Source: Desulfamplus sp. (GTDB lineage Bacteria > Desulfobacterota > Desulfobacteria > Desulfobacterales > Desulfobacteraceae). Taken from it: DNA of 64,000 nt. Shown piece after piece: positions 4,219 through 62,141 of the stretch. Each line of letters starts with the position of its first letter. The stretch's first letter is position 1. The stretch covers positions 1 through 64,000 of the forward strand of contig JADFZQ010000006.1 of the NCBI GenBank assembly GCA_015232455.1, in the 5' to 3' direction. The notes beneath the pieces were generated by a model. That model saw nothing but the letters and a program-made list of their open reading frames with translations, ran no database searches and was not told the origin of the DNA. The translations under genes and the position numbers were made by a program.

Positions 4219-4421
4219 CAATTATCTCCCTTTTACGACTATCAATATTTCCTTCCCATTCTAAGGATAAATAGTATTTTTTTATTTTTTATTGCTAAAG
4301 GTTGAAATTCAATACTATTTATAGATTATGAATGCAACACCAAATTATTTTTGCAAAAAAACTGTTTTTTGTTCATAATGCAATAACTTTAGCCAACCAT
4401 TTAACCATTTCTAAATTAGAT

Positions 4422-4490
4422 TATACTTCTATCGGTCATAAATTGAGTTTTGCATATATAAAAGCTAAATTTATTTTCGTTTAAAGTATA
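4422..4490. repeat. TATACT-ended inverted-repeat element, copy 1
   Basis: A 69-bp element bounded by TATACT and AGTATA, with long imperfect inverted arms (left GGTCATAAATTGAGTTTT, right AAAAGCTAAATTTA). It shares its left arm with elements at 41079, 61997, 38509 and 44053. It sits within the 351-nt gap between aroF and the protease gene. The rest of that gap is AT-rich and shows no gene. Confidence 0.7.
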
Positions 4491-7290: not shown

Positions 7291-7325
7291 AAGATTTGAC
7301 AACTTTTAAAAAGTTGTCAAATCTT
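7291..7325. terminator. 35-bp palindromic terminator repeat, copy 1
   Basis: Perfect 17-bp arms, AAGATTTGACAACTTTT and its complement, around a single A. It lies just after the protease gene. The same arms recur at 17972, 45474 and 50068. Confidence 0.75.
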
Positions 7326-7410
7326 TAAATAGCATAAAACTTAAATTTATAACCGCTTACAGTATAAATGAATTCTTAACTATAATTGAATCCTTAAGCG
7401 AGATTACTTA

Positions 7411-9001: not shown

Positions 9002-9145
9002 CAACTTCAATTTTCAGCACATATTTAAAGCAATTTTAATTTTAAAGATTCTTGGTATTGATTTGACGCTTTGTTAAAAATTATCAACTCTTTTAATTAT
9101 GACTTATTAACGATTTTTCATTATGGATAATATTTTTAGGACAAC

Positions 9146-17971: not shown

Positions 17972-18006
17972 AAGATTTGACAACTTTTAAAAAGTTGTCA
18001 AATCTT
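17972..18006. terminator. 35-bp palindromic terminator repeat, copy 2
   Basis: Identical 17-bp arms to the copy at 7291, again around a single A. A second smaller hairpin (TTTGATAAA / TTTATCAAA) lies beside it at 17947-17966. Both stand between the phasin gene at 18030 and phaC, where they could attenuate phaC relative to the phasins. Confidence 0.7.
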
Positions 18007-18029
18007 TAAATCATTTTTTTAAATAAAGA

Positions 18030-19932: not shown

Positions 19933-22290
19933 ATGAAAGAATTTATATTTCCAAAATCCATAATGCCAGAATCAGTAGAGAAAATTTCCCATATCTTTGA
20001 AGATGGATATGACTACATGATAGATGCTGCCCAAAGATCAACTCTATTTTTGGATATTCTAAGAAAAAGAGGCAATGGTTATCTTGAACACCTCCACCAA
20101 GGGCAGCCTCCTGTTCTTGTGTTTGATTATGAGGTAATAAGCGATGGAAGAAAAAGAGAAAAGCCAGTTAATTATCAGTTAGTCAGAATAGTTGGCTTTA
20201 AGCCAGAGGCAAATATCACAACACCTCCAAAAGAGACACCTATTGCCCCAAATAAACGCCCGATTGTTGTTATGGACCCAAGAGCAGGTCATGGACCGGG
20301 AATTGGTGGCTCAAAGATGGATTCTCAGATAGGGGTTGCAATGAGAGCAGGTTATCCTGTCTATTTTATGATGTTTTTTACAGAACCAATGCCCGGTCAA
20401 ACAATTGCAGATGTTCAGCAGTGTCAGGTGCATTTTCTTGAAGAGGTTTTTGCTCGTCATCCTGAAGCCCCAAAACCAGCCATTATTGGCAATTGCCAAG
20501 CTGGTTGGGCAGCATCGCTTATTGCTGCTGATAGACCTGATGTTACTGGTCCCCTTGTATTGAATGGCTCACCCCTATCATATTGGGGAGGCGTTAGAGG
20601 TGGACACCCAATGCGTTATCGTGGTGGACTTTTTGGCGGAAGTTGGCTTGCATCTTTATCAAGTGATCTTGGAAATGGTAAATTTGACGGTGCCCAGCTT
20701 GTTGAAGGTTTTGAAAAGCTTAACCCTGCAAATACGTTGTGGAGTAAGCTTTATAATGTCTATTCAAAAGTTGATACAGAAGAGCAGAGATTTCTTGATT
20801 TTGAAAAATGGTGGGGCGGTTTTTTTCTTATGAGCAGGGAAGAGATAAAGTTCATTGTGAGTCATCTTTTTATAAGTGATGAACTTGAACAGGGGTTTCT
20901 CAAGCTCCATGAAGGCAGGTATATAAATCTTAAAAATTTCAAAAGTCCTATTTTGGTATTTGCCTCAAGAGGCGATAACATAACACCTCCACAACAGGCT
21001 CTAAACTGGATACCAAGAGTGTATAAAACCACCGAAGAGATCAAAAAATTTGGACAGGTAATTATCTATATGCTTCACGAAGATGTGGGACATCTTGGTA
21101 TTTTTGTATCAAGTAAGGTAAACCAAAAAGAACACAAAGAGATAATTGGGTGTGTTGAGGCAATTGAGTTTCTCTCTCCGGGTCTTTATGAGATGGTGAT
21201 TCAAGAGGGACCAAGCCAACCTTGGCTGCATGATCATGGGGTAAAGTTTATTGAGAGAGATGTTAAAGATATTCTTGCTATGGATGATGAATCAGAAGAG
21301 GAAGAGGCTTTCCACTCTGTGGCTGCCGTCTCTAACTTTAATGATAAACTTTATCAAGATTTCTTAAGTCCGTGGGTTAGAATGCTCTCCTCTGATTTTT
21401 CAGCAGAGATTGTGCGTCAGATGCACCCTTTAAGAGTTGAAAGATATATCTGGTCTGATATGAACCCAATGATGGCTTTAATTAAACCTATGGCAAACAT
21501 AGTAAATGCAAGCAGATTTAAGGCAAAAAAAGATAATGCTTTTACTAAAATTGAGAAACATTTTTCAGATATGGTTGTTGATACTTTAGAGCTTTATCGC
21601 CAAACTCGTGATAATCTATTTGAAACCATGTTTTATAGTATGTATGGCAATGATTGGTCAAAATCTCTATTTTTTAATCCTGAAAGCCAATCTACTGAAA
21701 GCGATCTTGCAATTAAAAAGAAAAAAACAGAGCTTTTTGAGGAGATTCAAACCCAATTTTGGCATACTGCAATGAAAAAGGGTGGTTTTGAAGAGGCAAT
21801 TATCCGAATCATTGTCGCTGTTACAAAAGCAGATAGTGTAATGGGTATGAGCGAATATGGTGCTGCTGAAGAGTATATTAGAAATGACGAGCGTCTTAAA
21901 AAAATTAAGCCTGAACGGTTAAAGAACATGATACGTGAGCAGTCTGCTATTATAGAAAAGGACAAAGAGCTTGCTCTTACAACCTTAGCTGATCTATTGC
22001 CTGATAGAGAAGATAGAATTACAGCAGTTGAGTTTGCAAATATCATTGCCAATGCTGACGATCAACTCAATCCTAAAGAGATTTCTGTTCTTAAAACCAT
22101 AGAGACCGTGCTGCTTAAAGATGTTTTTTCTTTTCCATCGGTTAAGAAAGAGGAACAGCCTGTGGTTGTTAAGAAAGATGATAACACTGTAAGCGTTAAG
22201 AAAGATGAGCAAACTGTGGTTGTTAAAAAGAATGACAAAGCTGTTAGCGTTAATAAAGACGAGAACCTCGCAAGTGTTAAGAAAAAATAA
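19933..22290 (+). CDS. DUF3141 protein, PHA synthase-like
   Basis: A 785-residue protein of the DUF3141 family (PF11339), commonly found in PHA loci. An alpha/beta-hydrolase-type half includes Cys188 in 'GNCQAGWA', which fits the G-x-C-x-[GA]-G nucleophile box of PhaC. 'ASRGDNITPP' and 'EDVGHLGIF' offer acidic and His partners. The C-terminal 350 residues are helical and of unknown role ('DDRLNPKE'-like acidic segments near the end). The last 50 residues are repeats of the type V-V-V-K-K-D-D/E, very lysine-rich. It could be a second polymerase or a depolymerase/granule protein. Third gene of the phaR operon, 30 nt after phaJ. Confidence 0.8.
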   Translation: MKEFIFPKSIMPESVEKISHIFEDGYDYMIDAAQRSTLFLDILRKRGNGYLEHLHQGQPPVLVFDYEVISDGRKREKPVNYQLVRIVGFKPEANITTPPKETPIAPNKRPIVVMDPRAGHGPGIGGSKMDSQIGVAMRAGYPVYFMMFFTEPMPGQTIADVQQCQVHFLEEVFARHPEAPKPAIIGNCQAGWAASLIAADRPDVTGPLVLNGSPLSYWGGVRGGHPMRYRGGLFGGSWLASLSSDLGNGKFDGAQLVEGFEKLNPANTLWSKLYNVYSKVDTEEQRFLDFEKWWGGFFLMSREEIKFIVSHLFISDELEQGFLKLHEGRYINLKNFKSPILVFASRGDNITPPQQALNWIPRVYKTTEEIKKFGQVIIYMLHEDVGHLGIFVSSKVNQKEHKEIIGCVEAIEFLSPGLYEMVIQEGPSQPWLHDHGVKFIERDVKDILAMDDESEEEEAFHSVAAVSNFNDKLYQDFLSPWVRMLSSDFSAEIVRQMHPLRVERYIWSDMNPMMALIKPMANIVNASRFKAKKDNAFTKIEKHFSDMVVDTLELYRQTRDNLFETMFYSMYGNDWSKSLFFNPESQSTESDLAIKKKKTELFEEIQTQFWHTAMKKGGFEEAIIRIIVAVTKADSVMGMSEYGAAEEYIRNDERLKKIKPERLKNMIREQSAIIEKDKELALTTLADLLPDREDRITAVEFANIIANADDQLNPKEISVLKTIETVLLKDVFSFPSVKKEEQPVVVKKDDNTVSVKKDEQTVVVKKNDKAVSVNKDENLASVKKK

Positions 22291-22380
22291 TATCAAATAA
22301 GCGTAAAAAAAAGATTAATCACCATGAATTTTAAGTCTTGTTCGGGAGTTTCAATCGGACATTAATTGCAGTGCCGCTGG

Positions 22381-25068
22381 TCAGGCAATAGACTGCACAG
22401 AAGCCAAACGTGTCACTGAAGAGAGACGTAATCTTTTTTCAGTGACCTCCAGCAGCTTCCAGAGGACGATAGGGGCGTCCAGAATCATGCACCATGGAAT
22501 ACGGATGAGTTCGCACTCGCCGCTGGCCTGAAAATTCCACCTTATATCAACAGTGCGAAAGTGCCGGTGTTCACCAAAAAATGCATTAGGATTTAATGTT
22601 TCAAGAAGTTCTCCTGAAGTATCTCTCATCATAATCCGACCTTTTTTAATGAGCCATAAACAGGATTCATCATCTATATTGACAAATGCTTTGTCCGGCA
22701 GCGAAACCGAGCTTAAGGATTGCGAAAGGGTATTTAGAAAGGAAAATGAAGTCTGTTCTCCAAATAACCATGTTCCTCGCAGAAACCTAATCTTCTCCAG
22801 ACGTCCTGCAAGCTTTTCCATAATGCCGTTAGTTTCCAGAAATATCCTAAACAGAGTAGAAGCTATCATTATTGTCGCTGTATGGGAAGCAGCCCTGTAT
22901 GTCCCGTTGTCCATGATTCCATCGTTTAATATCTGTCTTAGACCCATGAAAGAACCAAATCCGAGGTAATTATTTATCCCATGCTCTGCATTCAGATATA
23001 GCACCCTGCCAGCAATGATCATTTCTACGACAGAGCTCTTTTCATCGTGTCGGCTGATTATTGTACCTGCGTTATATTCTTTTATATGCCCATTTAGAAG
23101 CATTCGAATATCATCATCAGAAGTTTCAGGAAATAAATCTCTAAGAGCGTAGAATGCCCTCTGTCGACGATGATCCTGCTCTCCAGGTATAAGGATGTCG
23201 ATAGCACCCAGAGATGTTTCGGAACCGATTTCCATCTCTTTTGTAGTCAATCTACGGGCAAAGTGCGATAGAATTAACCTTTTTGAGGGATCATTGAGAA
23301 AATCAAGGGCAGAACCATGGATAAGTCCTCCACCTATGTCTAATTTTTTTAAATCTGCCGGAAGCAGATACGCTTTTTTAACCCCTTCAATAAAATCGAT
23401 GGGAACATCTGCTTCTCCTTCACCGACCATTTTATCAAGAACCTCGAAAGAAGAAATATCTGCCCAGTGGGCGTATGTCTTATAACCTGTTCCATCTAAA
23501 GCACGGAACATAAACAGGTTTGTTTCCACAGGATGGGGGGAGTAAATGGGCATGACTTCTAATCCGCCGAATCTGTTCCATGTATCGAATTTTAGATCAT
23601 GAATGTCAAAAAAGTGTCCAAACTTATCCACTTCAATGGACATGAGGGCGGCAAATTTTCTGGCAACCGATTCACGGATCAAAGGTGTGGCATAATATTT
23701 TATCCGCCGATCTGTCCTTATCAGATCAGGTAAGCCGGCAAAATGATCATCATGGGCATGGGTGTGAAAGATCCCCTCTACCTCACTAATGTCTATGCCC
23801 AGGGCGTTGAGAGTATTGAGAACACCAGGTGCGGCATCAATGAGATATATTCGTCCTTGGAACATGATAACACTACCCATGCTGGGACGTTCAGTATCCC
23901 ATCCATCTCCTTCTCCTGTGTGTATTACTGCAAAATAGTGGCGTTGAACACGATGATAAGGTAAAGGATATGGAGATGTGTATAGCACTTTATTTGGCAG
24001 GTTCAGATCAATATCAGCACTTTCTCCCCTGTAGGTAAAACGAAACCTGTTAAAGTCAATACGTTGAACAAAAACTCCTTTGCAGATTTCCACTGGCATT
24101 TTATCTACTACAATAGTCTCCAAAAATGCACTCGGTTCTCGAATCTGACCAAAGGCAAACTTCAACTTGATCCGCATTATAATTTCAGCGGTTTCTTGAT
24201 CAATACCGGAAGCTAGAATCTCTTCCATGGAAAGAAGACCGTAATTACCGCGATGTATATATTCAAGTTGAGCTTTGACTTGATCAGCAGAACCTATAAG
24301 TATAGGTTTGCGTCCTGAGTTGTTAGGGTGGCCGGGTATCGCCATGCCCTGTCTGTAGAGCATTTGAAGTACAGGAAATTCCGCCAGGTTGGCAAATCTT
24401 CCGTTCTGTACCAGCAAATCGGAAAGGAGGATGGCGTTGGGTCCAGTTTCAAAGCTGATACCATCTTTAACAGCCGGGCTGTTAAGCCCTTTGCGCATAA
24501 GGAGCTTTACTACTTCTCCGGGACAGCCGCAGAGTATCCTTAAATCCACTTCAGGCACTTGCAACCAATAAACACCTTGTCCGACCGTTATAGTTAGAAG
24601 GTTTCCCATAGCTTTTCTAAGGGCGTCCTGTGTTTTTAAAAGTTCGCTTGTACGCAAACTAACCTCTTTTTCAAGGAGCTGTTTCTGATTAGCCATGGAC
24701 AAATGGATACGCAACCTGGCAGATAGGATAGCAGGGCTAAAAGGTTTGGTGAGATAATCTACTGCCCCTGCCTCCAATCCTTTTGTCTCATCTATCTCCT
24801 GCCCTTTTGCAGTAATAAAGATAACAGGAATCTCTTTTGTAGTCTCGTTGGCCTTCAATCGTTTACACACTTCAAAACCATCCATCTCAGGCATCATAAC
24901 ATCCAGCAGAATAATATCTATGGAAGGTTCAGATTGAGCCATTTTTAATGCTTGCTCTCCATTTTTAGCAACTATGATCCTGTAGTGATCTGACAGCAAG
25001 TTGATGAGTATGTGAATATTAACCTTTTGATCTTCAACAACCAGTATTTTGGGCTTTTTTTCTATCAC
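22381..25068 (-). CDS. REC / metallo-beta-lactamase / tandem cNMP-binding fusion
   Basis: An 895-residue cytosolic fusion. Residues 7-125 are a receiver with Asp56 in 'ILLDVMMPEMDG' and Lys108. Residues 160-370 are an unrecognised region starting 'NLLTITVGQGVYWLQ'. A metallo-beta-lactamase-fold domain follows (about 375-620) with the metal motif H437-x-H439-x-D441-H442 and a later 'SPHPVET' His. Two cyclic-nucleotide-binding-like beta-rolls close the protein (about 650-760 and 775-885). Composition is visibly richer in G+C than both neighbours, and it stands alone between convergent and divergent genes, suggesting transfer. It may be a phospho-regulated hydrolase or an oxygen/redox sensor (diiron MBL proteins exist); its substrate is unknown. 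Confidence 0.8.
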   Translation of the reverse strand: MIEKKPKILVVEDQKVNIHILINLLSDHYRIIVAKNGEQALKMAQSEPSIDIILLDVMMPEMDGFEVCKRLKANETTKEIPVIFITAKGQEIDETKGLEAGAVDYLTKPFSPAILSARLRIHLSMANQKQLLEKEVSLRTSELLKTQDALRKAMGNLLTITVGQGVYWLQVPEVDLRILCGCPGEVVKLLMRKGLNSPAVKDGISFETGPNAILLSDLLVQNGRFANLAEFPVLQMLYRQGMAIPGHPNNSGRKPILIGSADQVKAQLEYIHRGNYGLLSMEEILASGIDQETAEIIMRIKLKFAFGQIREPSAFLETIVVDKMPVEICKGVFVQRIDFNRFRFTYRGESADIDLNLPNKVLYTSPYPLPYHRVQRHYFAVIHTGEGDGWDTERPSMGSVIMFQGRIYLIDAAPGVLNTLNALGIDISEVEGIFHTHAHDDHFAGLPDLIRTDRRIKYYATPLIRESVARKFAALMSIEVDKFGHFFDIHDLKFDTWNRFGGLEVMPIYSPHPVETNLFMFRALDGTGYKTYAHWADISSFEVLDKMVGEGEADVPIDFIEGVKKAYLLPADLKKLDIGGGLIHGSALDFLNDPSKRLILSHFARRLTTKEMEIGSETSLGAIDILIPGEQDHRRQRAFYALRDLFPETSDDDIRMLLNGHIKEYNAGTIISRHDEKSSVVEMIIAGRVLYLNAEHGINNYLGFGSFMGLRQILNDGIMDNGTYRAASHTATIMIASTLFRIFLETNGIMEKLAGRLEKIRFLRGTWLFGEQTSFSFLNTLSQSLSSVSLPDKAFVNIDDESCLWLIKKGRIMMRDTSGELLETLNPNAFFGEHRHFRTVDIRWNFQASGECELIRIPWCMILDAPIVLWKLLEVTEKRLRLSSVTRLASVQSIA

Positions 25069-25270
25069 TTTTGATTTTTCTCCATATATGCTGCGTTAGA
25101 GTTTTTATAAATTGACATGGCAGAAACCAGCCTTTAAACTCAATTTATATGCCCTGCGAGGTTTCTTCCCTAAGTTCCATGTTTAGTTGTTCCAGACAGG
25201 AGATTGGCGTTATAAGAGAACTGTTAAAAAAAGTCGTTAGACCTGAGACATTTTCAATATACAGAATGAT

Positions 25271-25396
25271 ATGGAATATGGCAAAGAGGAAATTGCAGGT
25301 CAATCGCATGAAGTTGATAATTCACTTATTCCGATCACTAAAGAGAAGCAACACAAAAGCGTTAAAAGGGGCGGTTTTCTGCTCCAGAATTTATGA
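25271..25396 (+). pseudogene. possible 3' remnant of a lost gene
   Basis: The 413-nt gap between the REC-MBL gene and the macroglobulin start has no clear gene. This 41-codon frame (ATG at 25271) reads 'MEYGKEEIAGQSHEVDNS' and ends '..RGGFLLQNL', with a natural-looking soluble composition but stops just upstream and no ribosome binding site. It may be the tail of a decayed gene. A competing frame at 25149-25403 looks random. A half-copy of the AAACTCAATTTAT repeat arm lies at about 25134-25150. Confidence 0.25.
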
Positions 25397-25481
25397 GTAT
25401 TGACAGGTGATTGAATTGCTATATAAGGATTCTTTGAAGGATAGGTTATCTAATAAAAGGTTTATAGGGAGGTATTTTGAT

Positions 25482-28400
25482 ATGAAGAATTCATTTATTG
25501 CTACCTTAATTGCTATTTTTGTCTCTGTTGTGATTTTATCTCCTCTATCTCTAATATCGTGTTTTAAGACCGTTCATGCAGAAAATGCTTCAAAAGCACC
25601 TCTTACAATCACAAGAATAACTCCATCTGGTGAGGATATTGATAACCAAAGCCAGATTGTGATTCAATTTGACCAAAAGGTTGTTCCTATTGGAAAAATG
25701 GAAAGAGATGGAAAAGAGATTCCAATTAAAATAACTCCTGAACTCAAAGGTCAGTGGAGATGGCTAAATTCTTCTGATCTTTCATTTAATGTTGATCTTG
25801 CTGACAAAATGAAGTTAGCAACTAAATATACAATTACCATAAGTCCAGGAATTATGACGCAAGATGGAGCAACACTTGCAAAGCCTTTTGTTCATACATT
25901 TATAACTCGGCGACCTTCAATCTCCTATTACGAATTTCGCACATGGAGAACCCCTGGCACTCCTGTAATTGCACTTCACTTTAATCAACCAGTAACTAAA
26001 GATTCTGTTTCTCAAAAGATTATATTTTCTCTTGAAAATGACTCTCTTTATAACAACCCTGTTCAGGTTGAGAGTTCTAAAAAAGGGATAGAAAATAATA
26101 ACAGCATAGGAGAAAAAAATAGAGAGATAAAAGTTGATACAACATGGCTTATCTCCCCTACAAATGAGCTTCCTTTAGATAGCAAAATACGATTGATTGC
26201 AAACTATGGAATTTTGTCGGCTCTTGGCAGCGAAACAAGCATTGAGAGAAAAGATATTGTAGAATTTAACACTTTTCCTGAATTTAAGTTCGCTGGAATA
26301 AGATGCTACACAATAAAAGATAACAATCCAATTATAATATCGCCTGAGCAATCATTATCAGGAGATTTAGAGCATATTGTTGATCCAAGGGGTTATACAG
26401 AGCTTCTATTTACAGCTCCTGTAAGTTTTGAAGAGATTAAAGATAATGTCATCTTTTTACCTGATCTTGCTCAAGGTCAAAAAGATTATGACCCTTGGGC
26501 AAATGCCTACAATAACTATGGACTCAATTTCCCACACACAAAAGGAGAGCTTTATGGTGTTGCTTTTCCCCAATATTTAAAGGCATGGCAGCAATATACA
26601 ATTTTTCAAAAGAGTGCCGAAAGAGTGCAAGACTCTACCGTTGGCTCTTACGTTAAAGATATGTTTGGTAGAACGCTTGATAAGCCTATTGACTTCACAT
26701 TTTACACAGATCACAGAAAAGCAGGGTATCAGATTCTCCATGAGACAGGCGTTTTAGAAAAAAATATTGACAGCGAAGTTCCTGTGGCTGTTACTAACAT
26801 TGACGAAATGACCATCTCCTACAATGTTTTAACAAGCCCTATCAGCCCCACCTCCTCCCCCCTCCCCAATGGAGAGGGGAATAATAATTACTCCCTCCCC
26901 TTGGAAAGGGCTGGGGAGAGGCAGAATAAAGCAGCTCAAACTGCCCCATATTTCAAAAAAAACATTGTTAAATCAAACTTGAGAGTTCAAGACCTTGCTT
27001 ACTTTATACCTCTTGGTGTTCGTGAAATGTTAAATAACAATAGCGGTGCAGTTTATGGAAAGGTAGTATCAACATTGCCTGCTATTGAGAAAAATGAGAG
27101 AGATACCGTATTTTTTACTGTAGTAACTCCTTGGCAGATTCACGCAAAAGTTGGACATTTCAACACATTAGTATGGATTACAAGTCTTGTAACTGGAGAA
27201 CCAGCCTCTGGTGTTACTGTAACGGTGCATCGTGATCTTGTGGAAAATCTAACTCTAAATAACCAACCAATTGCTGAAAGCATAACTGACGAAAATGGAG
27301 TTGCAATGCTTCCCGGTATGGTTATTCTTGATCCAAAGCGTGAAACCTTTAATGACTCGTGGGAATATGGACATCAAAGGCTTATCATAAAAGCAGCAAA
27401 GAATAACGATGGCAACACTGCTCAAAAAATTGCGGGGAAAGCGGAGCAAAACAGCGATCTCGCAATCATGCCGCTAACCTATAGCCATGATTTTTCTGTG
27501 TCGCTTTGGAGAGTATCAGAAGGGAATATATCTTCTAATACAGAGCCTAAATATGCTCATATTCACGCATGGGGAACAACCCCGCAAGGAATCTACAAAG
27601 CAGGAGATTCCATTGACTATAAAATTTATGTAAGAGATCAAAATAACAACACTTTTACCCCTCCTCCGCAATCAGGATATAACTTAGCAATAACTGACCC
27701 AACTGGTAAAAACGTATTTGAGCAGAAAGATATAAACCTTTCAGAATTTAGTGCATTTCATGGACAATATACAGTGCCTAAAAATGGTGCAATTGGGTGG
27801 TATCGATTTAGTTTATCAGCATCTTTTTTAGATAGATCGTGGGAACCCCTTAAAGTATTAGTTACCGATTTCACACCATCGCCATTTAAAGTCTCAACTG
27901 AACTTAACGGAGATCACTTTAAACCAGAAGATACTCTCAACATTGAAACTTCAGCTTATCTTCACTCTGGCGGTCCATATAGCGATGCCTCTGCCCGTGT
28001 AACTGTAAGGTTAAAAGAGATATTGTTTGAGCCTGATAACCCTATTGCAAATGGCTTTATATTTTATAAATCTGCTGGTGGAAGTGAGAATGATTTTGCA
28101 ACTCATAATGAGGATAATGAAAATAGCGTTAAATTAGCTGATTCTAATCAAGAGCTTGAAAAAACATCTGATTCTATTCAAGAGTCTGAAGAGGAATATG
28201 ATGAAGGTGATGAATATAATGAGAGTGATGAAGTTGAATACCCTTCAGATGCTCCTGAACTTTTGTTAGAAAAAACAGCAACTCTTGACGATCAAGGTAT
28301 ATTAAAAAATAGCCTTCCTTTATCAAATATATTGGAAAGCTCTACAAATATATCCTCAAACTCTGCAAATTTCTCTTCAGAGGCTAAAATTTCATCAGAG

Positions 28401-31400
28401 CTTAATCGTCAGCAGATGCAGCCCATTTCTACAATTTCTTATGGTAGAATTGAAGTTGAGAGTGCTGTCAAAGATGATCGAGGCAGATCAGTTTCTAACC
28501 TAAAGAGTGCTACTTATATTGGCAGAGACTTTTTTGTTGGTCTAAAAAGTCTAAAATGGGTTTATGAATCTGGGAAACCTGCAATGATTCAGGCAATTGT
28601 TGTTGATGGAAATGGTAATCCTGTAAAGGAGAAAGAGGTTAAAATTGCGATTCAACATAGAGTTACAAAGGCAGCTCGCATCAAAGGTGCTGGTAATGCT
28701 TATCTAACTAAATATATAAACGAGTGGGTAAATACGGAAGAAAAAACTCGTATCTCAACACTTGAGCCTCTTGAATTTAATTTTAATCCATCAGAACCCG
28801 GAGATTATAGGATAGTTGCCAAAATCAATCAAAATTCAACTCCCCATATTTCAAGCATCTCGACATGGGTTACTGGTAAAGGGCAGGTTTTGTGGCAAGC
28901 CCCTAATGATTATAGCCTTAGCATCATTCCAGAACGCAAAGAGTATAAAGCAGGTGAAACCGCAAAATATTTAGTAAAAAATCCTTTTCCAGGAGCTTAT
29001 GCACTTATAAGTTTGGAGCGTTATGGAGTTTTGCGTCAATGGGTTCAGCGTCTTGAAAATTCAACCCAACTCCTTGAAGTTCCTCTAAACTCTGATGATG
29101 TTCCCGGATTTTTTCTATCGGTTACTATAGTCTCTCCAAGAGTATGGGATAACAAAGGTGGTTCGCTAAAATCTCCTACAGAAGTACCTCCACCACTTGA
29201 TGGTGTTGATCTTGGCAAACCTACATTCAGGTTAGGTTATGTTGAGACTAAGGTAAAAGAGTCAGAGCATGATATTAGCGTTACAGTTAAACCTGAACAA
29301 TTGGTTTATAAGCCGTCAGATATGGTTAAGGTAACTCTTCATGCAGAAGTTGCCCCACCCCCTTCCCCCTCCCCAATGGAGAGGGGAAATAATTACTCCC
29401 TCCACTTGGGGAGGGTTGGGGAGGGTCAAAATAATTATCTGGAAAGCTATAGTAGGAAAATTGAGCTTGCTGTGGCTGTTTTAGATGAATCTGTATTTGA
29501 TTTGATTGCATCAGGAAGAGATCACTTTGATATTTTTAAAGGATTTCACACTTTAGATGGTCTTGATGTTGAAAATTATAGTCTTCTTACCAATATAATT
29601 GGAAGGCGTAAATTTGAGAAAAAAGGAGCTGCTGTTGGCGGTGATGGCGGTGCTGGGCTAAAGATGCGATCAAATTTTAAATATGTAAGTTATTGGAATC
29701 CATCTATTACTACAGATGAAAACGGTAATGCAGATATTGAATTTAAAGCACCAGATAACCTTACAGGCTGGAAGATATTTGCAATAGCAGTTGATAAAAT
29801 AGACTCGATGGGACTTGGAGAGAGCAGTTTTAAGGTCAACCGTCCAACTGAGATAAGACCTGTTATGCCAAATCAGGTTACTCTTGGAGATTCATTTGAA
29901 GCTGGTTTCAATATTATGAATAGAACAGATAAACCAAGAACTCTTCAAGTTTCAATTAAAATGGAAAATCATGATTCTAAAGTGCATAATGTGCAATCAA
30001 AAGAGAGTGAGGAAAATATAATAACAGAACAAATTGAGATTATGCCGTTTAAACGTAAAACTGTTTTCTTACCTATTAGAACAGAAGCAATAAAATCGTC
30101 AGGAACAATAACCTTTACAGCTAAGGCACAAGATGAACTTGATGGAGATGCAATAACTCATATCCTGAAAGTAAATAAAAAGAGTTCTCCTATAACAGTT
30201 CTCAATTACGGCATGATACCGAGCAAAGAGACTCAAAATGTTATTGAGCATCTTCTCTATCCTGAAAATATAGATACTGACATAGGAGAGACTAAAGTAA
30301 CCTTCTATCCAACAGTCATTGGAAATATGGAAGAGGCTTTTAGGTATATGGCAAAATACCCTTATGGCTGCTGGGAACAAAAGATCAGCAAAGCTGTTAT
30401 GGCTTCCCACTTCATGGAGCTTAAAGATTATCTTAACACTGAAACGCTCTTATGGGAGGAAGCTCCACAACTTCCTGATAAAACCTTGCAATTAGCATCA
30501 CAATTTCAAGCACCAAATGGCGGAATGGCATATTTTACTCCAGATGACAATTATGTCTGCCCATATCTTTCTGCATATACAGCCCTTACATTTGGCTGGC
30601 TTAAAGCAAGAGGATTTAAAATTCCTCAAGATGTTGAACAAAAATTGTGGGACTATCTTGCAACTCTTCTTAGAAAAGATGTTTTTCCAACTTTTGAAAA
30701 TGGTGGAAATATTGGAAGAAGATACAGCAGTGGTATGGCTTCGACTGTTAGGGCAGTTGCACTTGCAGCATTTGCTAACTCTGGAAAAATCAACATTTCA
30801 GACATCACCCGCTATGAACCACACGTAAAAGAGATGAGCCTTTTTGGTAAAGCTCATTTTCTTATGGCGGCTATCAAGGTAAAAGGTGCTGAATCAATTG
30901 CAAAAAATGTTTGGGAGATGCTCCTTTCAAGTGCAAACTACAGCTCTGGAAAGGTTGTTTTTAGTGAAACTCTTGACACAGAATTTGGAACTATTCTTGA
31001 ATCAGAGCTTAGAACTCAAGGTGCTATTTTGTCTGCTATTGTGCAGTATGGACAAATTAATTATGAACAGATAAATAAAACTCAAAAGGGAAAGAACGCT
31101 AATCCCCAAATGACTAAAAAAAATAAAGCAGCAGAGGCGAAAAAAGATAACGCAGAAGATGCAAGAGAAGTTGCATTCAAATTGGTTCGCACCATTACAG
31201 ATACAAGAGGCAGGGATAAATCAGGCGAGAACACACAAGAAAATATCTTTTGTATGAATGGGCTTGCTGACTACAGTGCTAAATATGAAAGGTTTGAAAA
31301 TAATGGCGATGACAAAATAACAGTTGCACAAAATAGCAAAATAACAATTGAACAAAATGGTATTGGTGAAAATTCTATTCAAGCTAAAGCTACCTTAAAT

Positions 31401-32264
31401 CATGAAGTAAGAGGAGAAGAGGTTATGGGAGTTGCTATTTTCAAAAGCCTTAAAGATGCTCCTGTTAAATTAATCAAAAATATTACACAATCTGATTTGG
31501 GCAAAAAAGCAGATATAGTAATAACAAGAGATACTTCTGAAAAGAGTGAAGGTATCAATAAACTTGGAGATACTAATAACAGTGGGAAAGCCAGTGAAAA
31601 TAACAATAAAGCTGGAACAATCTACTATTCAGCGGGTATGAGCTATTCGCCAAAAGACGATTTCACACAACCAATTAATGCTGGCATGGAGATTAGAAGA
31701 GAATATAGTGTTGAAAAAGATGGTAAATGGAAACTTCTAAACTATAGTGATAACAATTCCAATGATGATTTAACCATAAGCAATAACAATGTGAAAGCAA
31801 CTGGCAGTAACTTAAATTCACCCGTTAATATTAATCAGGGCGACCTTGTTCGGGTAGATATTTTTCTCTCTTTGCCAGCAGCACGAAACTTTCCAGTGAT
31901 TAGCGACCCTGTTCCAGGTGGTCTTGAGCCAGTAAACAAAGACCTTGCAACCGCATCTGTTATTGATGCTGAAAAAGCAGATTCTCTATTACCTGAAGGT
32001 TCATGGTTGTTTAAATTGCCAAATTGGTATGAATTTAATGAGTCAAGATGGAGCTTTTATCACCAAGAGATTGGACATGATTTTGTGAGGTATTACGCTG
32101 ATTATCTACCTGCTGGAAATTATCACCTCTCCTATATTACTCAAGCGATTGCAAAGGGTAATTTTATAGCAATGCCCACCCATACAGAAGAGATGTATAA
32201 TGCAGATATATTTGGTAAAGGAACAACGCAAAAGATAGTAATTTCAGAAAGTTCTAAACAGTAG
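25482..32264 (+). CDS. bacterial alpha-2-macroglobulin with thioester
   Basis: A 2260-residue exported protease trap. The frame opens at a GTG at 25407, but I start it at the ATG at 25482, which has GGGAGGT 8 nt upstream and leads straight into a signal sequence. 'LISC' in this signal could be a lipobox, giving an inner-membrane lipoprotein like E. coli YfhM. MG-type beta domains follow. The thioester Cys-x-Glu-Gln is present: Cys1630 in 'YPYGCWEQ'. Also visible are 'GGDGGAGLKMRSNF', the alpha/alpha-toroid thioester domain and a C-terminal receptor-like domain. An acidic low-complexity insert lies near 28150-28260. Two in-frame palindromic repeats are inserted. No pbpC gene, the usual partner, is adjacent. 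Confidence 0.93.
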   Translation: MKNSFIATLIAIFVSVVILSPLSLISCFKTVHAENASKAPLTITRITPSGEDIDNQSQIVIQFDQKVVPIGKMERDGKEIPIKITPELKGQWRWLNSSDLSFNVDLADKMKLATKYTITISPGIMTQDGATLAKPFVHTFITRRPSISYYEFRTWRTPGTPVIALHFNQPVTKDSVSQKIIFSLENDSLYNNPVQVESSKKGIENNNSIGEKNREIKVDTTWLISPTNELPLDSKIRLIANYGILSALGSETSIERKDIVEFNTFPEFKFAGIRCYTIKDNNPIIISPEQSLSGDLEHIVDPRGYTELLFTAPVSFEEIKDNVIFLPDLAQGQKDYDPWANAYNNYGLNFPHTKGELYGVAFPQYLKAWQQYTIFQKSAERVQDSTVGSYVKDMFGRTLDKPIDFTFYTDHRKAGYQILHETGVLEKNIDSEVPVAVTNIDEMTISYNVLTSPISPTSSPLPNGEGNNNYSLPLERAGERQNKAAQTAPYFKKNIVKSNLRVQDLAYFIPLGVREMLNNNSGAVYGKVVSTLPAIEKNERDTVFFTVVTPWQIHAKVGHFNTLVWITSLVTGEPASGVTVTVHRDLVENLTLNNQPIAESITDENGVAMLPGMVILDPKRETFNDSWEYGHQRLIIKAAKNNDGNTAQKIAGKAEQNSDLAIMPLTYSHDFSVSLWRVSEGNISSNTEPKYAHIHAWGTTPQGIYKAGDSIDYKIYVRDQNNNTFTPPPQSGYNLAITDPTGKNVFEQKDINLSEFSAFHGQYTVPKNGAIGWYRFSLSASFLDRSWEPLKVLVTDFTPSPFKVSTELNGDHFKPEDTLNIETSAYLHSGGPYSDASARVTVRLKEILFEPDNPIANGFIFYKSAGGSENDFATHNEDNENSVKLADSNQELEKTSDSIQESEEEYDEGDEYNESDEVEYPSDAPELLLEKTATLDDQGILKNSLPLSNILESSTNISSNSANFSSEAKISSELNRQQMQPISTISYGRIEVESAVKDDRGRSVSNLKSATYIGRDFFVGLKSLKWVYESGKPAMIQAIVVDGNGNPVKEKEVKIAIQHRVTKAARIKGAGNAYLTKYINEWVNTEEKTRISTLEPLEFNFNPSEPGDYRIVAKINQNSTPHISSISTWVTGKGQVLWQAPNDYSLSIIPERKEYKAGETAKYLVKNPFPGAYALISLERYGVLRQWVQRLENSTQLLEVPLNSDDVPGFFLSVTIVSPRVWDNKGGSLKSPTEVPPPLDGVDLGKPTFRLGYVETKVKESEHDISVTVKPEQLVYKPSDMVKVTLHAEVAPPPSPSPMERGNNYSLHLGRVGEGQNNYLESYSRKIELAVAVLDESVFDLIASGRDHFDIFKGFHTLDGLDVENYSLLTNIIGRRKFEKKGAAVGGDGGAGLKMRSNFKYVSYWNPSITTDENGNADIEFKAPDNLTGWKIFAIAVDKIDSMGLGESSFKVNRPTEIRPVMPNQVTLGDSFEAGFNIMNRTDKPRTLQVSIKMENHDSKVHNVQSKESEENIITEQIEIMPFKRKTVFLPIRTEAIKSSGTITFTAKAQDELDGDAITHILKVNKKSSPITVLNYGMIPSKETQNVIEHLLYPENIDTDIGETKVTFYPTVIGNMEEAFRYMAKYPYGCWEQKISKAVMASHFMELKDYLNTETLLWEEAPQLPDKTLQLASQFQAPNGGMAYFTPDDNYVCPYLSAYTALTFGWLKARGFKIPQDVEQKLWDYLATLLRKDVFPTFENGGNIGRRYSSGMASTVRAVALAAFANSGKINISDITRYEPHVKEMSLFGKAHFLMAAIKVKGAESIAKNVWEMLLSSANYSSGKVVFSETLDTEFGTILESELRTQGAILSAIVQYGQINYEQINKTQKGKNANPQMTKKNKAAEAKKDNAEDAREVAFKLVRTITDTRGRDKSGENTQENIFCMNGLADYSAKYERFENNGDDKITVAQNSKITIEQNGIGENSIQAKATLNHEVRGEEVMGVAIFKSLKDAPVKLIKNITQSDLGKKADIVITRDTSEKSEGINKLGDTNNSGKASENNNKAGTIYYSAGMSYSPKDDFTQPINAGMEIRREYSVEKDGKWKLLNYSDNNSNDDLTISNNNVKATGSNLNSPVNINQGDLVRVDIFLSLPAARNFPVISDPVPGGLEPVNKDLATASVIDAEKADSLLPEGSWLFKLPNWYEFNESRWSFYHQEIGHDFVRYYADYLPAGNYHLSYITQAIAKGNFIAMPTHTEEMYNADIFGKGTTQKIVISESSKQ
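26845..26928. repeat. CT/GA-rich palindromic repeat inside macroglobulin, copy 1
   Basis: 84 bp with self-complementary blocks (CCCCTCCCC...GAGAGGGG, then CTCCCTCCCC...GGGCTGGGGAG). It is translated as a Pro/Ser/Gly/Asn-rich insert. It is closely similar to the block at 29352-29432 and foreign in composition to the AT-rich gene. Confidence 0.85.
29352..29432. repeat. CT/GA-rich palindromic repeat inside macroglobulin, copy 2
   Basis: 81 bp, the same repeat as at 26845. The two copies differ by one codon (AAT) in the centre and scattered changes. The left part is read in a different frame than in copy 1, while the right part (encoding NNYSL) is read in the same frame. Confidence 0.85.
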
Positions 32265-32274
32265 CCGTGCGTTT

Positions 32275-32378
32275 TATACCAAATCAGAAATAAATTGAGA
32301 TTTTATAGTTAGGAATGAAATAAAATAACACCATAAATTTATCTAAATTGGTAGAGACGCACGGCCGTGCGTCTCTAC
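32275..32378. repeat. partial TATACT-type element plus 28-bp palindrome
   Basis: ATAAATTGAG at 32290 follows a TATACC end at 32275, like the left arm of the element at 61997. At 32351-32378 there is a perfect 28-bp palindrome with half-site GTAGAGACGCACGG. Short fragments GCCGTGC flank it on both sides. It lies between the ends of the converging macroglobulin and PPDK-N-like genes. Confidence 0.65.
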
Positions 32379-32408
32379 TTTTATAGCCGTGCAATTTATT
32401 TCAAAGCG

Positions 32409-35400
32409 TTATTTTAAAACTACAGCACTTGATGCTCTGCCATTAATTTTTAAAATAACAGGGTCAGAGAGTTTAATATATCGCAAAAAATTTGTCTCTA
32501 CCTCTGCTTTTAGACCATCTAACCATGACCAATCAATAAAGTTCTTATCTTTTGCCGGCACTCCAAGATAGTTAATACCTAATGATGTAATATTATGGAA
32601 AAAATGGCTGCCTTGAGATGGATCAGCGTTTAGTTTATCTGATACTGTCTCAATTATTGTTCCAACATGAGTAATGTTGCTCCATTTTACAGGTATCCCA
32701 AGCCATCTATCTGATGTTCCCCATCTGCCTGGACCTATTAAAAGATATTTTACCTGCTGATCTTGTTTAAATTCTCCTTTTAGTTCGTTATTTCTACTAT
32801 TTTGTATATCAAATAATCCATTTAATTTATTAATCTCTTCAGCAATTTCAACTGTTTTGGCAGTATCAAAGGAGTCTGGTTTAACATAAATAATGTGATA
32901 AATGTCTGTAATCTGGCTGCTTCCCATAGCCTTATCAGAATAACAAAATGCGTTATCAATATCATCTTGTGTTATATCCACATCAATATTGTGCCTTGCA
33001 ACCATCATTGGTCTTATCTGAAGAAGTGAAAATTCAGCCTTTTTGTTATCATGGAGATTTACAGCAAACTCAACTTCAACAGAGCAGCCCATTCCATTTT
33101 TACCAATCTCCAATAGTTCTGAAAGTATTTCGCCAAGTGGGAATGATTTGAATTTTAAGATAGAGGCAAAAGTTAAAACAGGGTAGCCATCTTGAGTAAA
33201 AAAATCTCTTATTCTGTTATCTTCTGGGATGTAAGAGCTTACCAATTTTTTTACTGGAATGTGGTCAATTGCATCGTCAACATCTAATTTCGTAAGTTCA
33301 CAATCAGCCGACTCTTCGCAGCTTTTTGCCAAACAAGTTTTAAAGAGATCAACTCCATCTTGTTTATTAAAGAATTCAACCCCCTCTTGTTTATTAGATA
33401 TATTGTTTGTATCTGTCTCTTTTTGTCCTTCTACACCTTGATTGTGTGTAAGTTTTAAGGCGTAAAAGTATCGCTGTGCATTTTTCAAAATATTATCAAC
33501 TGACGAAAATTGAGGCAGAAACTCAGGGTATTTTGGAGAAAACCTTAAAGCAACCCCGCCATCAACAACAATTTTGCCAAGACCTAAAGCAATATGGGCA
33601 ACACCCTCTTCAGGCTTCATGTATGAGACAGGGTAAAAATTCCACGATTGGGCAACTCCTGAAATTGCTGGATAAAAATAGTCTCCATTAACTGTGCCTG
33701 ATAACTGCTGGATAATCACAGCCATCTTATCCTCTTCTGGACGAAATACTGAATTTCTTGCAAGTGTTCTTGGCATCTCTTGATAGATAGAAGCATAGAC
33801 CAATTTTATTGCCTGAATAAGTTGTTGAAGCCTAACTTTAAGCTCTGGGTGGTTATTGGCAAGCATATAGGTTTTATAAGCTCCAGCACTTGGGCGGTAG
33901 TGGGCATCTTCTAAAATTGCAGACGATCTGACAGCAAGCGGATATTTAACATGTTTAAGATAGGCTTTAAGGTCATTTGAGAGCCACTCTGGAAACTCTG
34001 CTTTTTTAAAATGTTCAATTATCTCTCTGTCACTTAGGGCGGTATCGTTATTTAATAAGAGTTTTGTATTTAAAAACGATCTGGTGTTATTTAGGCTTTC
34101 AAAGTCGTCAAAACCTTCTGTGGTAATCACAACTGTTTTAGGAAGTGTAATATCTACATTTAAAAACTTTGCCTGAAACTCTGATTTTTCCCTGAAAAGA
34201 TTTGAGATAAATGCAAGTCCTCTTGCTTTTCCGCCAAGTGAACCGCGACCAATCTTTACAAAATCACTTTCAGGATCAAACTCCTCTTTTATAAAATCAG
34301 AGACCAAACCTTTTTGACGAATTTTCAGCTTATTTCTAATAAGGGTTCTGATATGCTCTTTAAGGTGTCTTGTAGTTGGAAAATCACTAAGTTTTAATGG
34401 GCGAATTTTGCTTGCAAGCTGCATCTCAAATCTTGCCATCAGCCATCTTGAAAAGTCATTTCTATTTGCATGATATGCAATAGATTCACTTGGAACTGAA
34501 TGGAGAATAATGCTCATGCTTCTTAAATTTGATGCCCTTGCCACAACTGTTCCGTCATTTAGCCTAAATATGAAATCGCCAAACCCTAAATAATGCACCA
34601 AAAAATATCGTATATCTGCATGAAGAGAGGGAGAACGTTTATCAAGGAAAAAAGCTGGAATCTTTTCAGCTTTCTCTTTATTAATAACTTCTGACGATAA
34701 CATAAGAAGTGGAATATCTGGAATATCTTGGCGGATTTTTGTTAAAAGTTTTATTCCAGCTTCTGGATCTTCATGCCCCTCTCTTTGATAGCGAACATCA
34801 GAAATTACACAAAGCAGGTATTTACGATATTTTTCGTAAAGCTGTAAGGCATCTTCATAATTTTCAGCTACTAAAATTTTTGGACGGGCTCTCATTCTCA
34901 ATATACGATCATTCTCATTAAGTGAGTCGTCCATAACTGCTTGGGTCTGCATCACAATCTCTTTATAGATATAAGGCAGAATTGAGGATAGGTAGAGAGG
35001 AGAATCTTCAACAAAAATAATGACACGCACATCAGCAAGCTCTGTGTCGTGGTCAACATTCATAAAATCTTCGCGGCTCTTAACAAGAGCCATCAAAAGA
35101 TCAGTGTTGCCACCCCATATAAATATCCTATCAATAATGCTGCGTTCACAACATTTTTTATCTTCCATCAACCGCTTTTTATTTTCTTGCAGCCACTTCT
35201 CATTTTCCAACAATGTCCTGACATCATAAGCAAAATAATAGACCGCAATATCTTTAAATTTATCTTTTATTGCTGCACAAAGCACATAAGCATCCATATC
35301 GCTTATGTGCGGCATTACAATAACAACATCGTAATTTCTATTTTCAAGTTCTGCCATTGCTTCGCTGGCATTAGATACCCATGTAAGTCTTGGAGGTCTT

Positions 35401-38470: not shown

Positions 38471-38508
38471 AACGACCCTCAATTGTTAAAACCGCATCTC
38501 CTAAGATT

Positions 38509-38574
38509 TATACTATTCAAGGTCATAAATTTAGTTCTACCTAAAATGTAGAGACGCACGGGCGTGCGTCTCTA
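38509..38574. repeat. TATACT-type element (decayed) with GAGACGCACG palindrome
   Basis: TATACT at 38509 followed by GGTCATAAATTTAGTTCTAC, matching the element left arm, then TAGAGACGCACGG/GCGTGCGTCTCTA at 38549-38574 (one central mismatch). The right arm is not recognisable. It lies between the gdhA and solute-binding protein genes. Confidence 0.65.
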
Positions 38575-41078: not shown

Positions 41079-41150
41079 TATACTCTAAGCGGGCATTAAT
41101 TGAGCTTTTTCTATTTAAGTAGAACTCAATTTATGACCTTGATCAGTATA
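41079..41150. repeat. TATACT-ended inverted-repeat element, simplest full copy
   Basis: 72 bp from TATACT to AGTATA. The left arm GCATTAATTGAGCTTTT and right arm GAACTCAATTTATGACC are inverted relative to each other with about 11 nt between. This copy lacks the inserted GAGACG palindrome seen in the copy at 61997, so it may be the ancestral form. Confidence 0.75.
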
Positions 41151-41199
41151 GATGCTCTTTTTTAAATTTTATTAAAAATATCAAATAATTAACTGTCTA

Positions 41200-45473: not shown

Positions 45474-45508
45474 AAGATTTGACAACTTTTTAAAAGTTGT
45501 CAAATCTT
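45474..45508. terminator. 35-bp palindromic terminator repeat, copy 3
   Basis: The same 17-bp arms as at 7291 and 17972, here around a single T. It stands between the convergent thioesterase and serA genes, so it can end both transcripts. Confidence 0.8.
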
Positions 45509-45524
45509 TGATATTTAAAATAGA

Positions 45525-50067: not shown

Positions 50068-50101
50068 AAGATTTGACAACTTTTAAAAGTTATCAAATCT
50101 T
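50068..50101. terminator. palindromic terminator repeat, copy 4
   Basis: Left arm AAGATTTGACAACTTTT, right arm with one mismatch (TTaTCAAATC). It lies between ettA and prfC, both leftward, so it probably ends ettA transcription. Confidence 0.7.
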
Positions 50102-50154
50102 TCAAGAAACATTCAAATTATAACATTGCAAAATCAATATCAAATTTATAGAAA

Positions 50155-61996: not shown

Positions 61997-62104
61997 TATA
62001 CTCTAAGCGTGCATAAATTGAGCTTTTTTATATTTAAGTGGAGACGCACAGCCGTGTGTCTCTATAGTTTAGGTAAAACTCAATTTATGACCTTAAACAG
62101 TATA
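61997..62104. repeat. TATACT-type element with nested GAGACG palindrome
   Basis: 108 bp from TATACT to AGTATA. Left arm GCATAAATTGAGCTTTT, right arm AAACTCAATTTATGACC. Between the arms lies an inserted palindrome, GAGACGCACA...GTGTGTCTC (about 62041-62063), absent from the 72-bp copy at 41079. It lies in the 456-nt divergent gap between the hybrid kinase and Nudix genes; the rest of that gap is AT-rich and shows no gene. Confidence 0.75.
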
Positions 62105-62141
62105 AAATATTTATTATTAAGAATTATGGAGAGATAACAAG

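Follow-up and report, generated by a model that had tools for sequence, protein, structure and literature searches.

Protein-coding palindromic repeats have been debated since 2000, above all in Rickettsia, where Ogata et al. (2000, 2002) reportedly described the Rickettsia palindromic elements (RPE). Here we analysed a window of 64,000 nucleotides from Desulfamplus sp. (contig JADFZQ010000006.1, positions 1 to 64,000; by window we mean this whole stretch), in which one palindromic repeat lies twice, in frame, in a bacterial alpha-2-macroglobulin (A2M) gene. Judging from its ends and its target site, the repeat is a non-autonomous IS630-type miniature inverted-repeat transposable element (MITE) that adds a linker peptide to proteins. 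Desulfamplus is a sulphate-reducing genus that belongs to another phylum than Rickettsia, and in its element family the mode of movement is legible from the sequence.

Regarding the closest described systems, the RPE are palindromic repeats of 105-146 bp that occur between genes and in frame in many unrelated conserved genes, according to the relevant parts of PMC2229807 and PMC10969869. Table 1 of the former, a 2007 review, gives their target duplication as '?' and their terminal TA as +/-. The same review, in its sections on MITEs, reports open frames of ERIC, YPAL/RU-2 and the 107-bp Correia element, from enterobacteria and Neisseria, with free-living and host-associated species, that are fused in frame to genes, and several of these MITEs have TA at their termini (PMC2229807). 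The GTAG and CGTC repetitive extragenic palindromes (REPs), of 20-40 bp and tied to tyrosine transposases, lie within open reading frames (ORFs) of several free-living species, including replication and repair genes (PMC3733652, in part). Finally, section 9 of PMC2996958 cites stand-alone palindromic in-frame insertions in Wolbachia and Methanocaldococcus jannaschii, and the PARCELs are presented in that paper as 25-residue amphipathic tandem arrays in ORFs without assigned function. Since in-frame fusions of MITEs and REPs are described in these sources (PMC2229807, PMC3733652, both in part), palindromes inside genes are not new as such.

The Desulfamplus element resembles the RPE in that it is a palindromic repeat of ~100-150 bp, found in frame in unrelated conserved ORFs as well as between genes, but its host belongs to a different phylum, its target TA is seen to be duplicated, and an IS630 transposon matches its ends. 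At E up to 10, neither Pfam nor NCBIfam, which includes RPE models, matched any of four element peptides; no relation to the RPE was detected by family models, the RPE sequences themselves not being compared. The element appears to work like the RPE and to be a separate family. With the IS630/Tc1-type MITEs it shares the short length, the lack of a transposase, terminal inverted repeats (TIRs) in common with IS630 and the TA target duplication. It differs from them in that the intact consensus units of both its subtypes add a multiple of three bases with one hydrophilic open sense frame, and in that about half of its places are inside intact-looking genes. Compared with ERIC, YPAL and Correia, the sequences and hosts are other ones, and the Yersinia peptide is rich in hydrophobic residues (PMC2229807, in part) whereas the Desulfamplus peptide is hydrophilic. 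A REP with its REP-associated tyrosine transposase (RAYT) was rejected on account of the unit of 137-140 bp, against 20-40 bp, and of the IS630-like terminal repeats, no search aimed at a RAYT having been made. The repeats of Wolbachia and M. jannaschii are alike by their description in the section cited, sequences not being compared. The PARCELs are also palindromic protein-coding repeats spread between genomes (PMC2996958, in part), but the Desulfamplus inserts have 45 or 46 codons, are mostly single and lie in genes of known families, and identity with the PARCELs was rejected. The present analysis newly adds an intact unit, a duplicated TA, an IS630 partner, empty sites that are specific to species, and a control from the intergenic copies. 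Among the titles and abstracts listed by searches of an open-licence library, which does not extend to subscription journals, none reported such an element in Desulfamplus.

The A2M inserts and the intact element

The sequence-only reading of this DNA had proposed that two blocks of 84 and 81 bp, at 26845-26928 and 29352-29432, are copies of one repeat inside a single A2M frame, like the Rickettsia elements and in an unrelated host. Both blocks lie at these positions, within the single stop-free frame 25407-32264 (+). Their extent had been underestimated: the alignments run over 26838-26929 and 29350-29451, and the blocks, which are real, form the core of a longer unit, of which the right TIR of the second copy had not been counted. 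The features concerned are the following.

25407..32264, + strand: bacterial A2M gene, a stop-free ORF of 2285 aa counted from the first GTG.
26838..26929, + strand: insert 1 of A2M, a degraded sense copy of type 1 with both terminal repeats gone; peptide PISPTSSPLPNGEGNNNYSLPLERAGERQNK.
29350..29451, + strand: insert 2 of A2M, a sense copy of type 2 with the left end gone and the right end intact; peptide VAPPPSPSPMERGNNYSLHLGRVGEGQNNYLESYS.
29435..29451, + strand: right TIR of insert 2, TTATCTGGAAAGCTATA, located by an exact TIR match and by alignment.

The ORF belongs to the bacterial A2M family, with MG2, the bait-region domain A2M_BRD, A2M and bMG10 above the Pfam cut-off (4/4) and bMG3 under it. 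The ATG at codon 26, which would give a lipoprotein-like signal sequence, is a likelier start than the first GTG. Both inserts are alike, with 80% and 95% ungapped identity (repeat families D10 and D13) and 87% by BLAST. Their right halves are translated in one frame (NNYSLPLERAGERQ / NNYSLHLGRVGEGQNNYLESY) and their left halves in two (SPLPNGEG / SPSPMERG), as had been read from the letters.

Many further copies were found in the source genome (G000; 4.35 Mb, 98.5% complete), inside genes and between genes. The 17-base core TCCCCAATGGAGAGGGG occurs there with up to 3 mismatches at 33+37 sites, against 1+2 sites for the reversed control pattern, which is far beyond chance. With the first block as query, 48 matching pieces were obtained, some of which are self-matches of the palindrome (40 of 52 first-look candidates were scored). 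Intact copies follow a consensus TATAG..CTATA of 137 or 140 bp, bounded by imperfect 17-bp TIRs of the form TATAG[CT][AT]TTCCAGATAA; the TIR TATAGYWTTCCAGATAA, with up to 2 mismatches, was found at 32+29 sites of G000 against 7+6 for the reversed control. There are two subtypes with a linked length change of one base plus two bases, ATTAGCCCC..GGATAATAATTAC versus TTGCCCC..GGAATAATTAC, and because of this link the left halves can be in two frames while the total is still a multiple of three. After duplication of the TA, the insertion adds 138 or 135 bp, i.e. 46 or 45 codons. An example of the element peptide is AGEGQNNYLESY.

Regarding the copy number, we compared the two full-length consensus strings with 0.44 Mb of G000 around the repeat and other pattern matches. 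We found 58 places in these parts, 28 of them in 22 open ORFs and 30 outside, the latter mostly in short gaps between ORFs. A place was taken as intragenic when it lay within an ORF of at least 150 aa with at least 40 aa on either side; the count of 58 is not exhaustive, and two entries may be pieces of one copy (e.g. C6:9815 and C6:9851). With a consensus well below ~300 bp, no transposase of its own and this number of copies, the element corresponds to a MITE.

Target site, IS630 partner and empty sites

An exact two-sided empty site was obtained for CheA. Here G005 reads through the site (ATTATTGAAAATAGAACT / GAAAATAGAAC) and G000 carries an intact copy (ATTATTGAAAATATAG..GCTATAGAACT / GAAAATATAG..GCTATAGAAC); the comparison gives a TA target, which is duplicated, and a net gain of 135 bp, i.e. 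45 codons. In A2M the right junction of insert 2 obeys the same rule: the final two bases of TTATCTGGAAAGCTATA are the TA target dinucleotide and the empty site of G005 has TA (GATAGTAGG). The left end of this insert and part of the linker have been lost.

The ends of the element match those of an IS630 transposon. In G003 a broken IS630 gene is followed at ~30 bp by TTATCTGGAAAACTATA, and by searching 98 genomes with this fragment we reached a complete 1107-bp IS630 element in G045, which is of the same family and another genus. This element has the TIRs TATAGTTTTTCAGATAATTAATTT and TATAGATTTCCAGAAAAATAAATTG and a transposase of 319 aa (NF033545, E 7e-50). Broken relatives from two Desulfamplus genomes, G003 and G007, carry the same terminal repeat. 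The MITE ends TATAGTATTCCAGATAAATAAATTG and TATAGCTTTCCAGATAATTATTTTG share their TIR with the IS ends TATAGATTTCCAGAAAAATAAATTG (L321) and TATAGTTTTCCAGATAAATAATTTG (L311, L323), and by eye the similarity spans ~25 bp. The IS630 endonuclease domain PF13358 has matches in 6 of the 10 genomes of the genus. We class the element as a non-autonomous IS630 MITE because its ends match a transposon of which Desulfamplus has decayed copies and a neighbouring genus a complete one, and because the TA is duplicated.

The orthologue comparison bears on the same point. Insert 1 of A2M is shared by G005 and absent from the other 11 of the 12 aligned orthologues that cover its site, among them G004, G009 and the 85% identical A2M of G006, in which the linker at this place is unrelated or shorter. 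Insert 2 is absent from all 11 aligned orthologues covering its site, including G005 (93% identical over the flanking parts), and in the alignment both sites are variable linkers. The case that would have told against the sequence-only reading, i.e. distant orthologues with the same segments, was not seen among the aligned A2M orthologues, and its idea of a Rickettsia-like coding palindrome in an unrelated host gains support from the orthologues without inserts and from the many copies. For MnmE, orthologues from 20 of 55 matching genomes were aligned; those of G000 and G005 have the insert, directly after the NKxD motif, and the 18 others do not, including that of G006, which is 92% identical over the N-terminal part. 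In HypF there is an intact copy in G005 and none in the sequences of G000, G006, G009 and G004. As the filled or empty state in A2M, MnmE and HypF differs among close relatives, several of the insertions, judged by these comparisons, are recent and species-specific.

The whole element was found in 6 of the 98 genomes searched (G000 included), all of them Desulfamplus, with a weak match in G002, and 4 of the 10 genomes of the genus had no match. The exact 24-base end pattern gave 26 stretches in the genome collection, all from Desulfamplus. A 26-base piece of the core, with up to 2 mismatches, was found only in G000 among 395 genomes across the phylum, a sample in which G000 has no other genus or family members.

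Two side observations concern the ends. The same TIRs also border other, unrelated cores (L218, C4:20435-20606; L226, C56:2677-2771; L232, C9:10762), as expected if one IS630 transposase mobilises several MITE families, and several families may indeed share one. Besides, a related GC-rich repeat with other ends (GCCTCACCCCTAACCCCTCTCC..) lies in G000 at C20:40270, C22:121 and C23:27311; the C20 copy overlaps a mechanical ORF, and the C22 and C23 copies are between ORFs or at a contig end.

Orientation, reading frame and rival explanations

Two of the six frames are open in either consensus, both with the target TA across a codon boundary. The sense frame is hydrophilic (mean hydropathy -0.37 and -0.47) and the antisense open frame hydrophobic (+0.42 and +0.12). 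In G000, 26 of the 28 intragenic places are in sense orientation. In G000 and three relatives together, 46 of 48 distinct intragenic sites are sense and 2 antisense (54 rows, among the matches listed), and the hydrophobic antisense frame is used at none of the 48; this count excludes the locus L381, and L375 of G005 and the ABC-transporter site, a one-sided match, are maybe one site. The two antisense places of G000 read another frame, which is open in those copies and hydrophilic (-1.21 and -1.02), and the antisense copy in adenine deaminase is common to three genomes.

The intergenic copies serve as a control, for which mechanical ORFs of at least 100 aa were used and copies shorter than 56 bp were dropped. 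Between co-directional neighbour ORFs, 16 copies are sense and 21 antisense; the same set contained 9 copies between opposite ORFs, 7 without a flank, and intragenic rows of which 48 were sense and 4 antisense. Fisher's test of intragenic versus intergenic orientation gave p 5e-7 for all rows, which is too small because shared sites make the rows not all independent, and 1e-3 for G000 alone. Furthermore, all 8 intact intragenic copies add a multiple of three, against 2 of 11 intergenic ones; since the intragenic group is defined by open ORFs, the comparison is in part circular. We set aside a motif test for the sense frame, since two sense copies inside genes failed it and an antisense one passed; among 27 intergenic copies that include both halves, this test would count the frame as kept in 3. 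Because the bias appears in the intragenic copies and not in the intergenic ones, the best reading is an unbiased insertion, after which selection on the protein would remove hydrophobic antisense copies from genes.

The peptide itself is little constrained. In six orthologous insert pairs the ratio of nonsynonymous to synonymous differences (pN/pS) is ~0.76 in the element against ~0.22 in the host flanks, so the peptide, by this measure, is close to neutral and drifts almost freely while its frame stays open. A histidine-kinase pair was left out of this ratio (with it, 0.73 in the element and 0.37 in the flanks) and rejected as orthologues: its flanks differ at 56% of the nonsynonymous sites, and the G005 member matched the ABC-transporter site on one side.

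Our account, to which we give a probability of about 90%, is that of a Desulfamplus IS630-type MITE which inserts at TA and is kept as a hydrophilic in-frame linker, while other insertions are purged. An IS630-family transposase would act in trans and insert the TATAG..CTATA element at a TA, which would be duplicated, with a net gain of 135 or 138 bp. A TA across a codon boundary (NNT/ANN) would allow read-through in one of the two open frames, either the sense frame, which is hydrophilic (IVFQINKLAIPISPTPVPLPNGEGDNNYSLPLGRAGEGQNNYLESY, with a variant in type 2), or the antisense frame, which is hydrophobic. Where a loop or an inter-domain stretch is tolerant, the hydrophilic and probably disordered linker would survive in a gene that is presumably expressed and whose protein would retain its function, and other insertions would be purged. 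A2M would have gained the element twice in this way.

Several observations weigh against this account. The two antisense intragenic sites mean that the orientation is not absolute, and L381 of G005, if it were a gene, would be the sole user of the hydrophobic antisense frame. This doubtful 184-aa ORF (two antisense rows scored as 'coding', their peptide being hydrophobic) has no Pfam match and was dropped as a gene. CheA is the sole exact two-sided empty site obtained, and the junctions are not always clean, since the neighbouring linker differs or is lost at insert 2 of A2M and at HypF. No intact matching IS630 was found in G000 or G005, drafts which may lack repeats, where the matched DDE_3 genes are only 33-34% identical to it; the exact repeat was present at 1 of the 16 scanned DDE_3 loci of the genus, the broken locus of G003. 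Actually, a MITE needs no intact mobiliser in the same genome, and its transposase can be lost.

The explanations that would replace the whole account find little room. At both A2M sites the orthologues have variable linkers, of which some are rich in Asn/Gln, and one could take the segments as native low-complexity linkers that are alike by chance. Nevertheless, 58 places, both intergenic and in unrelated genes, carry the same DNA, the intact copies share terminal repeats and close orthologues have no such segments; the empty sites and the copies elsewhere refute this explanation, which keeps practically no probability. The hairpin potential of the RNA, which is very strong in an intact copy (z -6.5) and moderate in the A2M inserts (z -2.0 and -2.6), would suit an insert that ribosomes bypass or that is cut out of the message (like an intron, an intein or a bypassing element), leaving the protein unchanged. 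In that case, however, frame, orientation and hydrophilic peptide need not be kept, there was no Rfam match in 25000-33000 of the window, and the four element peptides matched no Pfam or NCBIfam model; we hold such a removal to be very improbable. An RPE or another known protein-coding palindrome acquired horizontally also seems to us highly unlikely. The size is similar and the in-frame habit in conserved genes is the same (PMC10969869, in the part concerned), but the element was found in genomes of the genus only among the 98, and its core in G000 only among the 395, a sample with no other member of the genus or family. Moreover, its ends are those of an IS630 element from the bacterial family of its host, and its peptide has no NCBIfam match, Rickettsia sequences not being compared.

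Two other explanations touch only the last step, namely the purging and the neutrality, and leave the rest as it is. The excess of sense copies (46 of 48 sites) might come from the insertion process, through a preference of the transposase or the replication fork relative to transcription, and not from selection on the peptide; this we consider improbable, as the intergenic copies are divided between both orientations (16 and 21) and the TIRs are symmetric, so that both orientations suit the same codon phase. Alternatively, the peptide might have been recruited for a function, as an adaptable linker or an interaction tag, and be kept by positive or purifying selection. It is recognisable across dozens of genes, and G000 and G006 have one and the same ABC-transporter copy between diverged flanks, but the ratios given above for the six orthologous pairs place it close to neutral, and recruitment has in our opinion a small chance of being right.

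Within the account of a MITE kept as a linker, one may go further and suppose that the element evolved for protein tolerance, being a selfish element for which coding sequence is a refuge and intragenic copies are long-lived sources of new copies. We propose this tentatively and with some doubt. Its basis would be the multiple-of-three length of both subtypes (138 and 135 bp, by linked losses of one base and two bases) and the hydrophilic peptide of the sole sense frame. Against it, there are several well-conserved intact intergenic copies out of frame (e.g. L350 and L346 of G005, 96-97% identical to the consensus), and because of such copies the in-frame length is not needed for recent spread. 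If the idea were true, linkers would have been lengthened in passing across the whole proteome. The choice between a neutral passenger and a usable protein part is now testable with the filled and empty orthologues of MnmE, CheA, HypF and A2M.

Host genes and other repeats in the window

All 22 insert-bearing ORFs of G000 have at least one Pfam match, and 19 of the 20 scanned ORFs of G005, G006 and G004 have a match as well, which in one of these 19 (L347) is only below the cut-off. The host genes are listed below, and their names beyond the Pfam labels are our own reading.

G000, host genes: radical SAM/B12 proteins, hybrid histidine kinases, PEP synthase-like enzymes, MnmE and an EpmA-like tRNA synthetase.
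G000, host genes (continued): PBP1C, adenine deaminase, ABC transporter, polyketide synthase (PKS) and nonribosomal peptide synthetase (NRPS) proteins, CheA and ABC permease.
G000, host genes (continued): HrpA-like helicase, a protein-kinase/histidine-kinase fusion and A2M.
G005, further host genes: MutL, a MiaB-like radical SAM protein, a tetrapyrrole-methylase-family protein, FapA and CobB.
G005, further host genes (continued): Fic, aldehyde ferredoxin oxidoreductase, HypF and an aminopeptidase N-like protein.

Many of the inserts lie between annotated domains and some inside them, as in EpmA, the NRPS adenylation domain, the bait-region domain of A2M and, by alignment, the G domain of MnmE. 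The best PDB matches of MnmE and EpmA break off no later than at the insert and continue only well beyond it, and the PDB sequence matches to A2M reached neither of its inserts. A structure model of A2M residues 1160-1420, made without alignment, was not used; its mean pLDDT of 39.7 is too poor to place loops, so the surface-loop placing of the A2M inserts rests on the alignment. The sequence-only reading had noted that the inserts lie within a secreted defence protein, but the element is dispersed over many unrelated genes and therefore the A2M context is not special. MITE-derived peptides can occur within conserved enzymes and upset annotation and structure prediction.

Between G000 and G006 the ABC-transporter insert (L178, L388) shows no difference, yet its flanks have diverged at 25% of the synonymous sites, and gene conversion between copies is a possible cause. 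G005 possibly has a longer version at or near this site (L375).

The window contains other repeats as well. A second inverted repeat, which is short (AAGATTTGACAACTTTTAAAAAGTTGTCAAATCTTT), is present 5 times (7291-7330, 9058-9097, 17972-18011, 45474-45513 and 50068-50107) and may represent a further MITE or a family of terminators. Members of a third inverted-repeat family, CTCAATTTATGACC / GGTCATAAATTGAG, are dispersed at 4414-4463, 38506-38572, 41079-41153 and 61997-62112, and TATAC is often close by. Copies of the palindrome TAGAGACGCACGGCCGTGCGTCTCTA are at 32352-32382 and 38544-38574, and a variant of it adjoins an element copy of G000 on C6 near 9,900. Finally, 27-bp tandem repeats at 22141-22302 encode a charged tail of the VKKDE type that ends the ORF 19933-22290.

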